Origin: a virus
DNA length: 21,025 nt
IMG/VR virus record: IMGVR_UViG_3300029448_000537
Span: 1-21,025 of that record
Strand: one strand, 5' to 3'
The translations under genes were made by a program, and so were the position numbers. Positions 7,965 to 15,109 of the stretch are shown here, piece after piece (positions within the stretch are counted from its first letter, which is position 1; every line of letters begins with the position of its first letter). Below the pieces are notes generated by a model, which saw only the letters and a program-made list of their open reading frames with translations, ran no database searches and was not told the origin of the DNA.

Positions 7965-8308
7965 GGTTCAAATACTTCTCTAAATGTTGTCTGGATCGTT
8001 GCTCTATTGTTATATGGTATAGATTTTGACCATGCTTCGCAAACAAACTTCTGTGCAGCAGCTTCTCCAGGTGCAGTAAAATCAAAGCTATCACTATCTA
8101 AAGCTCTAGCATCAAGGAAGGTTTCTATAGTATCTGCGTCTGTTTCTGATACGTTGAAAGTAAAATTATAAACTTTAGGATTTTGATGTTCAGCTAATCC
8201 AAATAAAATTCTATGCTCATAACCATCGGCAAAACGAACTGTTCTGGTTAATGGTGCGGATCTTTTTTGTTGTCCGTATGTAGGTTTTATTGAAGGAAAT
8301 GTAGCCAT
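7961..8308 (-). CDS. M: Minor tail protein M
   Basis: A 115-aa protein of the phage minor tail protein M family, whose members form part of the distal tail at the junction of the tube and the tip. Typical features are the early Pro-rich lead (FPSIKPTYGQQ), RTVRFADGYEHRILFGLAEH, the acidic helix SETDADTIETFLDAR, and the closing AWSKSIPYNNRATIQTTFREVFEP. Length fits the family (about 110 aa). It starts on the TAATG that ends the tape measure gene and overlaps the start of L as ATGA, giving the lambda order H-M-L-K-I-J. Confidence 0.9.
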   Translation of the reverse strand: MATFPSIKPTYGQQKRSAPLTRTVRFADGYEHRILFGLAEHQNPKVYNFTFNVSETDADTIETFLDARALDSDSFDFTAPGEAAAQKFVCEAWSKSIPYNNRATIQTTFREVFEP

Positions 8309-10488
8309 TATGTTAATAATCCTCCTGGTCTTTTCTGTTTAATTAATTCTGATTGTATCGCAACTGAAATTACACGACCAAGTTCCCTACCACCTTGTTC
8401 ATCTCCTTCAACAGAAGAACCAGAAGCATCTACATTTACAACTATATTTGTAACGCTACCTCCGCCATCAATCTGACTGTTGGGAATTATATTGCCACCC
8501 TTAGAACCCATCTGCAAAATTTCTGGACCTCTTTCACCAACTACATAAGCACCGCCAGCAGATACTGGACCACCTCTTTCTTTACCAAACAAACCAGATA
8601 AGAAACCGCCACCAAAACCTTTCCCGCCACTGATCGCATTTCCTATCCCACTAATAGCTTTATTTAACGCAATATCAAGTAATTTATTTTTTAAATTATT
8701 TAAAACATTACCTAGTGCTTGACCTAAAGTTTGACTACCATTTATTGCTTCTCTTAAATTTTCAACTAAACCTTGTCTTGTTTCTTGTCCTATTTGTCTA
8801 TATTGCTCTTTAAGCTTTTCTGCCGCTTCTTTATTTTTGTCTATGTTTTCTTTTTGTTTTTTCAGTTCGTTATTTGCAGTTAGGTAATTTGTAATTATAT
8901 CTCTATATTCCTCTCCATATTCTTTAACAGCATTATTAATTGCTTGCTCTAATGCAACTTGTTCTCCTTTGCCATTAATTTGCGCCCTAACTAATGCTAA
9001 GGAATCACTTTGACTATCTATAAATTCACCGATTGCTGCAACTTTATCCATTTCTGCTTGTTCATAAGCAATTGCTTTTGCAAGATTATCTTTTTCTAGT
9101 TTATTTATTTCTTCTTGAATCTTTTTATTTTCTTCTTTTTTATCTGCAATATTTTTATTTTTTTGTGCAATAGCTTCTGATTTAGTAAGCTGTTCTTGTA
9201 AAGGTTTTAACTGATCATTTAATGATTTTATTTGTCTTTTTAGGCTTTGATCTACTCTATTACTTGAACCTAATCTTGCCTCTAACTTAGCTTTTTGTGC
9301 TTGTATTGCTTTTATCGCCGCTTTTAACTCTTCTTCACCACCTTCTTTAACAAGTCTGTTGTATTCTTTTTGTTTATCTATATGTTTAATAACAGCAGTC
9401 GTTATTGCTCCAATAGCTATAGCAACAGCACCAAACCCTGTGGCTAAAGTAGCTAATTTTAAAGCACCTAAAGCTAAAGTTAATTTTCCAATACCACCAG
9501 AGGCTAAAAGACTTGTTGCAGCCATACCTTTAAAGCCACCACTAGCTATCAATGCTTGCGTACCCACTAAACTTAATTGTGTTGCAGCTATAGTTAAGGC
9601 AGTTTTTAATAAGGCTACGGCAACAGTCACTCCTTTAATAGCAAAAGCTACTCCAGTAAATATTGCAGCGGTTGTTCCTATAGGTGAATTAAAAAATTCT
9701 GTTACTGCCGCTGTCAAATCGGTAATTCCTTTTATTACAGGTAAAACAGCAGGCGAAAGTAAATCTCCAAATGCTCTTGATAAGTTTTCCGCTTCATTTC
9801 CTAAGTCTTTAAATACTTGCGTTGGATCATTTTCTAATAATGCCTTAAGCGAAGCCGCGCCATCAACTTCTACTTTCTTTAATGCCCTAATAACAACATC
9901 ACTTGTCAATTTACCTTCAGAAGCAAATTTCTTTAACCCTCCAACTGTTGTATCTAATTCTTCTGCTATGGGTGCTAAAAGAGTCGGGACTTGTTCTGCA
10001 ATTGATCTAAATTCATCCCCTTGTAAACGCCCAGAACCTAACGCCTGCGCTAACTGTCGAAATGCATTTGATGATTCCATCGCGGACGCCCCCGCCAGTT
10101 TTGCAGCGGTATTAAATCCAATAAATGTAGTTCTTATATCCTCGACTTCAACTCCTAAAGGCTGTAATCTTGCAGTAATATCTGTAATACCTTCAAGCGC
10201 TTCTGTTGCACTTAAGCCGAATGATTTTTGCGCTTCTGCCGCTATTTCTTGTGATCTTGCAAAAGTTCCAGATGCTTTTGTCAACAAACCAAGCCTAACA
10301 TTTAATTTTTCAAAATTTGCTGAAGTATTTACAGCCTGTCTTGCTAAAACTGTTAAACCTACACCAGCAATAACTCTTTGCAGTCCACCAAATGATTTCT
10401 GAAGGGAGTTTGTTTTACTTTGTACTCCCTGTAATGCTCTAGTTGCACCACTGGCATCTACAGTAAGTTTTACATTTGCCTGTGCCAC
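8308..10488 (-). CDS. Tail tape measure protein
   Basis: A 726-aa protein. Residues about 55-210 carry the conserved tape measure domain (ITDITARLQPLGVE, NAFRQLAQALGSGRLQGDEFRS, EGKLTSDVVIRALKKV). Residues 250-365 are hydrophobic, Ala/Gly-rich helices that may cross the host membrane at infection. Residues about 370-580 are charged and predicted coiled coil. The C-terminus is Gly-rich and contains GGPVSAGGAYVVGERGPEIL, a common tape measure ending. The length sets the tail length; at roughly 0.15 nm per residue the tail would be about 110 nm (inference). The start is GTG; no ATG fits better. The AAAGG 12 nt upstream is only a weak ribosome site. Confidence 0.92.
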   Translation of the reverse strand: MAQANVKLTVDASGATRALQGVQSKTNSLQKSFGGLQRVIAGVGLTVLARQAVNTSANFEKLNVRLGLLTKASGTFARSQEIAAEAQKSFGLSATEALEGITDITARLQPLGVEVEDIRTTFIGFNTAAKLAGASAMESSNAFRQLAQALGSGRLQGDEFRSIAEQVPTLLAPIAEELDTTVGGLKKFASEGKLTSDVVIRALKKVEVDGAASLKALLENDPTQVFKDLGNEAENLSRAFGDLLSPAVLPVIKGITDLTAAVTEFFNSPIGTTAAIFTGVAFAIKGVTVAVALLKTALTIAATQLSLVGTQALIASGGFKGMAATSLLASGGIGKLTLALGALKLATLATGFGAVAIAIGAITTAVIKHIDKQKEYNRLVKEGGEEELKAAIKAIQAQKAKLEARLGSSNRVDQSLKRQIKSLNDQLKPLQEQLTKSEAIAQKNKNIADKKEENKKIQEEINKLEKDNLAKAIAYEQAEMDKVAAIGEFIDSQSDSLALVRAQINGKGEQVALEQAINNAVKEYGEEYRDIITNYLTANNELKKQKENIDKNKEAAEKLKEQYRQIGQETRQGLVENLREAINGSQTLGQALGNVLNNLKNKLLDIALNKAISGIGNAISGGKGFGGGFLSGLFGKERGGPVSAGGAYVVGERGPEILQMGSKGGNIIPNSQIDGGGSVTNIVVNVDASGSSVEGDEQGGRELGRVISVAIQSELIKQKRPGGLLT

Positions 10489-10513: not shown

Positions 10514-11043
10514 TTACCTTGAATTGTGCTTTTGTCGTTGTGCCGCTCTTTTTTCTTCTTCAAATTTGTTTTCATAATATGCAGCCCAATATATTAACTC
10601 TTCCTGTGTAATTAGTTTTCTTAATTCTTGTAATGTTTTTCCTAATTCTGTTGCGAGAAAAAATTCAAAATTTATCCAATTATCTCGCTTTAGTCGTTTT
10701 TTGCTGTATCTACATCAAGTTTTATATCAAATAAAAATAGTTCTATTTCATTTAATACATTTTCTGGAAGTTCTCTTTGTAAGTTTGGGGCATCTGCAAG
10801 AGCAAAAGCCTTTGTGCCATCTTCAAGTTCTGCCATTTGACATAGTAATTGAGTTGATACAGTCAAAGCTTCATCTGTGCCAGCTACACTTTGAGCTTTT
10901 TGTCTATCAAACCTTGTAAGTGGTTTAAAATATAAATCAACAACTTTTTCTCCTTTCGAGTTTTTAAATTCATACTTTCTTCTTACGGACATTTGATCTC
11001 CGTAAGATTCAGTAATTAAATCAATTGTTCTTTTGATTGCCAT
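10514..11043 (-). CDS. GT: Tail assembly chaperone, frameshifted long form (gpGT-like)
   Basis: A -1 ribosomal frameshift at the heptamer 10696-10702 joins the first 116 residues of the short chaperone to a 60-residue extension ending at a TAA at 10514-10516, for a 176-aa product. The extension reads RLKRDNWINFEFFLATELG and later EELIYWAAYYENKFEEE, a helix of the kind seen in T-type domains of siphovirus tail chaperones. The -1 frame has a stop five codons before the slip site and no ATG in between, so the extension cannot easily be made alone. In lambda the G:GT ratio is essential for coating the tape measure and recruiting tube protein. Position between tube and tape measure genes fits exactly. 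The frame is read directly; use of the shift is inferred. Confidence 0.85.
10653..10688 (-). promoter_or_regulatory. Possible frameshift-stimulating stem-loop
   Basis: GCGAGA at 10688-10683 can pair with TCTCGC at 10658-10653, a perfect 6-bp stem with three or four G-C pairs in otherwise AT-rich DNA. The loop is 24 nt. The stem starts 7 nt after the slippery heptamer, the usual spacing for a stimulator. The large loop weakens the case and no pseudoknot was worked out. Confidence 0.5.
10690..11043 (-). CDS. G: Tail assembly chaperone, short form (gpG-like)
   Basis: A 117-aa protein between the tail tube and tape measure genes. It begins MAIKRTIDLITESYGDQM, has a basic/aromatic centre (DLYFKPLTRFDRQKAQS), and ends in an acidic region followed by DTAKND and a stop. 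The AKN codons form the slippery sequence. Proteins of this size at this location bind the tape measure protein and keep it soluble until the tube polymerises around it. Sequence similarity to lambda G is not obvious; assignment rests on size, location and the frameshift arrangement. Confidence 0.82.
   Translation of the reverse strand: MAIKRTIDLITESYGDQMSVRRKYEFKNSKGEKVVDLYFKPLTRFDRQKAQSVAGTDEALTVSTQLLCQMAELEDGTKAFALADAPNLQRELPENVLNEIELFLFDIKLDVDTAKND
10696..10702 (-). promoter_or_regulatory. Programmed -1 frameshift slippery heptamer
   Basis: On the minus strand the codons GCA AAA AAC give the heptamer A AAA AAC in the zero frame, the canonical X XXY YYZ form. It lies one codon before the zero-frame TAA. 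Both tRNAs can re-pair after slipping back one base (AAA AAA). The -1 frame stays open for 60 more codons. Confidence 0.88.
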
Positions 11044-11072: not shown

Positions 11073-11492
11073 CTATATAGCTGAAGTTATAGTACCGCTT
11101 GTTGTAAAACTAATATTTATTATTTGAACTTCGCCAAGAGTTGCACCATATTCAGCAGAGGTAATAATTCCAGCAAAACTAATTTTCTTTGCTGAAGTTG
11201 CACTATCAGGAAATAACTCAAACAATGCGTCAGCATTATCACCTGTTGTTAAAACATCATCAATAAATGTTGTATAACCTGCACCTGTTTCACCAGGGGC
11301 ATATAAAAGTTCTGCTGAACCTTCTCCAGCAATTAAACCACCAATATTTGTTTTAAAGGTATCTCCTTGCTTTGTTGTCTCCATAATATCTTTTGAGATA
11401 GACAAAGACCAAGACCTTGTTTGACCAACATCAGCTTCAGTACCGCCAGCGTTTTCAAACATGATTTTTCCAACATCACCCTTAATAGCCAT
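11073..11492 (-). CDS. Major tail tube protein
   Basis: A 139-aa protein beginning MAIKGDVGKIMFE and VGQTRSWSLSISKDIMETTKQGDTFKT, which matches the tail tube families of siphoviruses (TP901-1/SPP1 type) where the N-terminal beta strands are followed by the E-T-T-x-x-G-D segment. The rest (GLIAGEGSAELLY, FAGIITSAEYGATLGEVQIINISFTTSG) is beta-rich with the conserved closing strand pair. Subunits stack as hexameric rings to form the tube. It is placed after the tail terminator and before the chaperone, as expected. No extra Ig-like C-terminal domain is present. No clear Shine-Dalgarno precedes the ATG. Confidence 0.88.
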   Translation of the reverse strand: MAIKGDVGKIMFENAGGTEADVGQTRSWSLSISKDIMETTKQGDTFKTNIGGLIAGEGSAELLYAPGETGAGYTTFIDDVLTTGDNADALFELFPDSATSAKKISFAGIITSAEYGATLGEVQIINISFTTSGTITSAI

Positions 11493-14071: not shown

Positions 14072-15109
14072 TTAATCCTGGTTAGATGCGACAGTTGCAC
14101 GAACAATACCGATGTTCTTTGTCTCGTAAACTTTCGACCAAGAGGCTACTGTCTCTAATACGCTACGAGTTGGGTTCACTGTTGATACCGCATACTTCAA
14201 ACCAACTGGGTGGTAGATGTAGTGAAGGTCAACAGCCATTGCTTCTTCCAAAGCTAGGATGTCTCTATCAGTTTGAGTTCTGATTGGTGCTTGCTCACCA
14301 GTAACAACTGCTCCTTGTGTAAAGAAGAATGTTGAATACTCTGTTGAAGAACCACTGTTTGCAGTAGGAACATCATCAGAAACAATTACGTTAAGACCCA
14401 TAAAAGTATTAACAGTTGTTGGGCCGTCAAATGCTCTTGTTGTGCTACCAGAAGCTGCTGCTGTATCAGGAGCACCAGTATTGTCATAGATACGATCAAT
14501 AGCATTACGCTCAACCAAGTCATAAAAGACTTTTGAGTGCATTGCAACTGATGTGATCTTGTTTCCCTGGTCACCAAGTAAAGCTTGTGCTTTAGCAACG
14601 TGTCTAGGACTCAAAGTTGTAGGAGTATCACCTGATTCTGAATCTATGCAAAGATCAAACAAAGCTGAGCTGCTATCGTTTGCAGTCATAGAACCAAATG
14701 CACCAGTTAAGCAAGAATATAAATCCTTTTGCTTCTGATTATTGACATATGCAGCCATTTTTTGTGCAATAGCAGCCATAGGATCAGGGCCACCACCAAC
14801 TGCTAATGCAGCTAAGTCTCTGGAACTGAAAGCACGACCTCTATGTAAAACAGCAGCGATTTGATTATCGGCTGTGATCTTGCCTGGTGTTAATGATGTT
14901 GAGTCTGTAAGAACTTCAAAATCGCCAGATAGATTTGCTTTATAAAATGGAATTTTGACGAAATCCCCACCTCTTTCTGAGGATAGATTTAATTCTGCCA
15001 AAGGTGTAACCACCCCACTCTGCAAGAAGGCATCTCTGTTAGTTGTCTCTTCTATTAGATAAGGAGTGAACACCTCTGGGATAATTAAATCACTTCTTAA
15101 TGTTGCCAT
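14072..15109 (-). CDS. Major capsid protein (HK97 fold, SPP1 gp13-like)
   Basis: A 345-aa protein with a clear capsid signature: MATLRSDLIIPEVFTPYLIE, then RDAFLQSGVVTPLAEL, GGDFVKIPFYKANLSGDFEVL, and LHRGRAFSSRDLAALAVGG, followed by AAYVNNQKQKDLYSCLTGAFG. The end (LDLHYIYHPVGLKYAVSTVNPTRS shortened here to its sense: a Tyr-rich strand and a PT-SVLETV helix) is also typical. There is no N-terminal delta domain of the HK97 protease-cleaved type, and a separate scaffold gene precedes it. The family resembles SPP1 gp13-like coat proteins. A 68-nt untranslated leader with short repeats lies ahead, the longest gap in the operon. Confidence 0.9.
   Translation of the reverse strand: MATLRSDLIIPEVFTPYLIEETTNRDAFLQSGVVTPLAELNLSSERGGDFVKIPFYKANLSGDFEVLTDSTSLTPGKITADNQIAAVLHRGRAFSSRDLAALAVGGGPDPMAAIAQKMAAYVNNQKQKDLYSCLTGAFGSMTANDSSSALFDLCIDSESGDTPTTLSPRHVAKAQALLGDQGNKITSVAMHSKVFYDLVERNAIDRIYDNTGAPDTAAASGSTTRAFDGPTTVNTFMGLNVIVSDDVPTANSGSSTEYSTFFFTQGAVVTGEQAPIRTQTDRDILALEEAMAVDLHYIYHPVGLKYAVSTVNPTRSVLETVASWSKVYETKNIGIVRATVASNQD

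Follow-up and report, generated by a model that had tools for sequence, protein, structure and literature searches.

Frameshifting that yields the G and GT proteins is already established in long-tailed phages, the slip site of phage lambda being GGGAAAG. The ratio of G to GT in lambda helps tail assembly, and the haloarchaeal siphovirus HCTV-2 is described as shifting between its g and t genes at A_AAA_AAC (both reviewed in PMC5009743).

Here, we consider a virus record of 21,025 bases, IMGVR_UViG_3300029448_000537 (the whole of this stretch is referred to below as the window), whose minus strand carries a cluster of head and tail genes. In it, G and then T come between the major tail gene and the tape measure gene and thus occupy the lambda-type position (Table 1). 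We consider it about 94% probable that the window encodes a lambda-type G/GT tail assembly chaperone pair expressed via programmed -1 ribosomal frameshifting, which makes it an ordinary case of its kind; that the slip site is actually used we infer from sequence. No Rfam match and, with ARAGORN, no tRNA were found within the window.

Table 1. Coordinates of the features at the G/T junction and of the adjacent tail genes in the window.
Feature	Position	Strand	Evidence
Major tail protein, immediately upstream of G	11073..11492	-	phrog_10528 major tail protein, 2.9e-35
Gene G, zero-frame product of 117 aa	10690..11043	-	ORF; phrog_20784, 1.3e-33; predicted fold similar to HK97 tail assembly chaperone 2ob9
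Slippery heptamer A_AAA_AAC	10696..10702	-	zero-frame phase, one codon before the stop; kept in relatives
Spacer of 7 nt, containing the zero-frame stop TAA (10692..10690)	10689..10695	-	sequence
Hairpin: outer stem 10688-10683 / 10658-10653, inner helix 10681-10678 / 10665-10662	10653..10688	-	fold energy; z vs recodings; covariation
T segment, -1 frame after the slip, 60 codons + stop	10514..10696	-	open frame; codon periodicity; phrog_337; hhalign to lambda gpT
Tape measure protein, immediately downstream of T	8308..10488	-	PF20155 TMP_3, 1.2e-34; phrog_339, 1.5e-32

Judging by sequence likeness, the virus is probably a siphophage of the Prochlorococcus type with Prochlorococcus as its host. 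This is a best guess, as the capsid protein (14072-15109) shares 92.5% identity with the one from Prochlorococcus phage MED4-184, and a part of the tail region resembles AG-345-A17, a virus found in a marine single-cell sample. P-HS2, a Prochlorococcus siphovirus (PMC7852597), matches the window just as MED4-184 does. The record looks like a mosaic: compared to the 92.5% of the capsid, G (10690-11043) is only 57% identical to its MED4-184 counterpart, and the tail-tip side is similar to AG-345-A17.

The zero-frame ORF ends with ...GCA AAA AAC GAC TAA, GAC being the sole codon between the heptamer and the stop, which agrees with the first-pass annotation of this DNA. The same annotation described the -1 frame as open for 60 codons and devoid of ATG after a stop five codons upstream. 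This stop is TGA, and direct reading of T in the -1 frame reveals no GTG or TTG either; the frame closes at 10516..10514, for a predicted GT fusion of 176 aa.

The window is A-rich, AAAAAAC occurs nine times on its minus strand, and its 26 ORFs contain in-phase X_XXY_YYZ heptamers in abundance (n = 51), hence a slippery heptamer followed by an open -1 frame could be a mere coincidence, with T untranslated. However, the heptamer in G is the only one of the 51 whose -1 frame outruns the zero-frame stop, namely, by 58 codons. The comparative data also contradict such a coincidence. As the conservation sample we used the best 80 IMG/VR relatives per query, that is, the closer relatives; those 80 and the window itself form the window clade (n = 81), with G identity of 77-100% at the protein level. 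A heptamer in phase is present at all 81 loci, as A_AAA_AAC in 35 of them, as A_AAA_AAA in 45 and, within a longer A run, as A_AAA_AAT in one, and the -1 frame past it is always open, for 54-62 codons. All 81 loci of the clade of Synechococcus phage S-H1, whose G is about 60% identical, have A_AAA_AAC in phase and an open -1 frame as well. Thus, the conservation of the heptamer and the open frame among homologues, proposed earlier as a check, holds for 162 of 162 loci in these two clades, but only in part for the more distant sister clade of MED4-184, where the -1 frame is open and the heptamer is missing from 82 of 82 sequences. A single-frame G-T fusion, suggested in the first-pass annotation as evidence against the shift, was found in neither the window clade (n = 81) nor the S-H1 clade (n = 81). 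Finally, the mean minor-allele frequencies at the three codon positions of T, read in the -1 frame, are 0.125/0.057/0.261, near the values for G in the zero frame (0.110/0.043/0.266). Variation in T is concentrated on the third positions of the -1-frame codons, as in G on those of the zero frame, and by this pattern the T segment is translated in the -1 frame and is under protein-coding selection, leaving practically no room for coincidence.

T could also be reached from an altered mRNA, if the polymerase slips at the A run and changes the number of A residues, making ribosomal frameshifting unnecessary. Runs of 8 or 9 A, in principle sufficient for this, are present at 13 of the 81 window-clade loci; but the run is of only 6 A in the window, in 34 other members of its clade and in all 81 S-H1 loci. 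Hence, we deem transcriptional slippage very unlikely, the more so as the A runs are not lengthened by selection, and a conserved hairpin at a distance of 7 nt suits ribosomal shifting. Alternatively, T might be a small gene in its own right, with ribosomes reinitiating past the stop of G. Indeed, the record of S-H1 lists the T segment (L082 1875-2018) as a hypothetical protein of its own, 47 aa in length (AZB50580.1), and many T segments of the S-H1 and KBS types contain an ATG or GTG. In the window, T has none of the three start codons, no start occurs within the first 35 codons in 62 of 81 window-clade sequences and in 63 of 82 from the MED4 clade, and the conserved coding begins directly past the slip site, ahead of every start codon, which renders a separate gene highly improbable.

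We now turn to the two proteins that the shift would join. The family to which window G belongs, phrog_20784, is of unknown function. No Pfam or NCBIfam model matches G or T, the lambda G models TIGR01674 and PF06894 being missed by G, and searching the PDB sequences with a profile of G retrieved no relative, so that the chaperone link comes solely from the fold. The AlphaFold2 model of G (mean pLDDT 86.9) has as its best PDB match the HK97 tail assembly chaperone 2ob9, with the Foldseek probability 1.00 and E 1.5e-3; VIA-align superimposes 99 residues with Z 8.7 and rmsd 3.7, the identity is 9-12%, and both programs place 2ob9 far ahead of the next PDB entries. Among predicted viral proteins, the model also matches several annotated tail assembly chaperones. 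The G protein of KBS-S-2A, which belongs to phrog_20784 too, matches the tail assembly chaperone family phrog_344 (6.3e-5), and the relative from S-2L is annotated as a putative tail assembly chaperone. The predicted structure thus supports a tail-assembly-chaperone fold of window G, and its chaperone function is a prediction.

The first-pass annotation had recognized a T-like segment in the -1 frame, and the profile comparisons agree with it. Window T matches the tail protein family phrog_337 (1.7e-6), as does lambda gpT (4.7e-7), and so do 27 of 28 T segments. Alignment of the T profile with residues 3-43 of gpT by hhalign, spanning the first 40 residues after the slip, gives E 5e-4 at a probability of only 31. 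The Pfam family Phage_tail_T (PF06223) is matched by gpT with 2.1e-14, and window T does not match it at E up to 0.1. Hence, by sequence, window T is not assigned to the PF06223 model, and the T segment is likely related to lambda gpT.

Downstream of the heptamer, a 6-bp GC-rich stem starting 7 nt past the slip site had been proposed, and we observe it as GCGAGA/TCTCGC, with the fold energy of -11.2 kcal/mol and z-scores of -2.66 (63 nt) and -3.36 (44 nt). The span of the 24-nt loop is real as well, but the loop is not plain, as it holds an inner 4-bp helix (AATT/AATT). When folded alongside random synonymous recodings that encode an unchanged peptide, the 51-nt stretch proved more stable, with a median z of -3.2 in the window clade (p < 0.05 in 93% of loci), -3.2 in the S-H1 clade and -2.35 in the KBS group; for the MED4-184 clade it was -1.8, and the hairpin there is less certain, with varying folds. 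In control stretches upstream and downstream, z was close to zero, with a single exception in the S-H1 clade (e.g. L166-L245). This second well-folding part of T, 51-102 nt past the start of the hairpin stretch, has a median z of -4.3 and is not seen in the other clades.

Some of the pairs are changed on both sides. In the window clade, the inner pair of alignment columns 24-39 is U-A in place of C-G in 9 of the 46 distinct sequences and disrupted in 2, and the pair 18-45 turns from A-U to G-C in 16; both fall on synonymous sites of the -1 frame. Compensatory change is clearer in the KBS-S-2A group, with four inner pairs changed on both sides, 95.7% of cells pairing, and a covariation score of 0.281 as opposed to 0.184 in shuffles (0/500) and at most 0.085 for the slid structure. 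For the window structure the score is not higher than that of the -2 slide, hence the case for covariation is carried by the single pairs and by the KBS group. Tree-based independent contrasts point in the expected direction and are too few for significance, and the compensatory pattern may have its source in recombination of whole hairpin types.

The exact pairing varies. The 6-bp outer stem of the window occurs at 54 of the 81 window-clade loci, and the other 27 need another pairing register, their arms being AGGGGA/GGGGAA/TGGGGA/GGGGGA and TTCCTMGC (M = A or C). Given these G-rich arms in a different register, the window stem as a clade-wide consensus was rejected. RNAalifold favours an outer part of 4 bp, pairing columns 17-20 with 43-46, which is broken in no sequence. 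In the window, S-H1 and KBS groups alike, the most frequent fold leaves a spacer of 7 nt, within the distance of about 5-9 nt expected of a stimulatory structure. Thus, the z-scores relative to recodings, the compensatory changes and the shared spacer length make a structural role of the RNA after the heptamer well supported at the sequence level, and we infer that the hairpin stimulates frameshifting. RNA structures are often found downstream of phage tail frameshift sites (PMC3483164), so this hairpin is not new in kind.

Taken as programmed -1 frameshifting, the locus would work as follows. The majority of ribosomes would translate G and terminate at TAA, and a minority, with tRNALys and tRNAAsn on A_AAA_AAC, would slip back by one base to AAA AAA and continue in the -1 frame to produce GT. 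The hairpin would probably slow the ribosome and raise the slip rate; in E. coli, A_AAA_AAC shifts far less readily than A_AAA_AAG does (PMC5009743), and a stimulator placed after it would therefore be plausible. If lambda is a guide, the tape measure protein would be coated by G together with the G portion of GT, and the T part of GT would recruit the major tail protein. The G/GT chaperone reading, already offered by the first-pass annotation, gains from the HK97-type fold, the codon periodicity in the -1 frame and the heptamer at 162 of 162 loci; the points against it are the low shift-proneness of A_AAA_AAC in E. coli, the 27 of 81 loci lacking the 6-bp stem, the MED4-184 clade lacking the heptamer, and T missing Phage_tail_T.

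A homologous T follows the G gene in the -1 frame in the cyanophages S-H1, KBS-S-2A, MED4-184, MED4-117, P-HS2 and S-2L, with different slip signals: A_AAA_AAC in S-H1 and KBS-S-2A, A_AAG_GAA in MED4-184, MED4-117 and P-HS2, and C_CCA_AAG in S-2L. In the MED4-184 clade (L083 1839-2033, L084, L086-L165), which has lost the A6 heptamer, T is still in the -1 frame, and the junction is strongly conserved as A_AAG_GAA TCY TAA RGGGGGA, with the shift located at the same position; in bacteria, -1 shifting at the single-codon site A_AAG is known (PMC5009743). In S-2L (L285 1201-1587 and downstream), C_CCA_AAG lies in the tail assembly chaperone gene and the T homologue in the -1 frame is unannotated, as is T in the records of MED4-184, MED4-117 and KBS-S-2A. 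One KBS-like contig has G_GGA_AAG at the junction.

In 11 KBS-S-2A-like contigs (L267, L268, L270-L274, L276, L277, L280, L281), T occupies the +1 frame relative to G and becomes open right after the TGA inside GACATGAAAAGC (GAC ATG AAA AGC). By its sequence, such a junction would apparently require a +1 shift at AAA_A; assembly errors are an unlikely cause, since the arrangement is found in 11 contigs with 7 distinct sequences. If so, one G-to-T junction would be crossed by different recoding events in related cyanobacterial siphophages, the signal being replaced and the product kept: a -1 shift at A_AAA_AAC with a hairpin in the window, S-H1 and KBS-S-2A groups, a -1 shift at the single-tRNA site A_AAG_GAA in the 82 sequences of the MED4-184 clade, and a +1 shift at AUG_AAA_AGC in the 11 KBS-S-2A-like contigs. 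We give this general scheme even odds.

Our search, which was thin on subscription papers, found no previous description of GT frameshifting for these cyanophages. The most interesting by-product is the turnover of the slip signal at one junction, the loss of the heptamer in the MED4-184 clade and the KBS-like +1 arrangement being new but minor. The analysis supplies T, the hitherto missing half of the tail chaperone, for an abundant group of marine cyanobacterial siphophages, whose cultured members MED4-184/P-HS2, MED4-117, KBS-S-2A and S-H1 have no annotated GT. Taken together, these phages vary naturally in slip site and hairpin register at a constant product, and such a series would allow one to measure the contributions of heptamer, spacer and stem to a phage frameshift.

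Compared with the known systems, the window shares its heptamer, and the purpose of the shift, with HCTV-2 as described in the review, whose host is archaeal. With the HK97 chaperone 2ob9, window G has a common fold at the low identity given above. The window differs from lambda in its predicted slip site, A_AAA_AAC rather than lambda's own, in having 60 T codons compared to approximately 144 in the lambda T ORF, in the conserved hairpin after the slip site, and in a G protein outside TIGR01674/PF06894. What it shares with the lambda G/GT system is the gene order, a -1 shift near the end of G (in the window a predicted one), a T without its own start, and an N-terminal part of T likely related to gpT.
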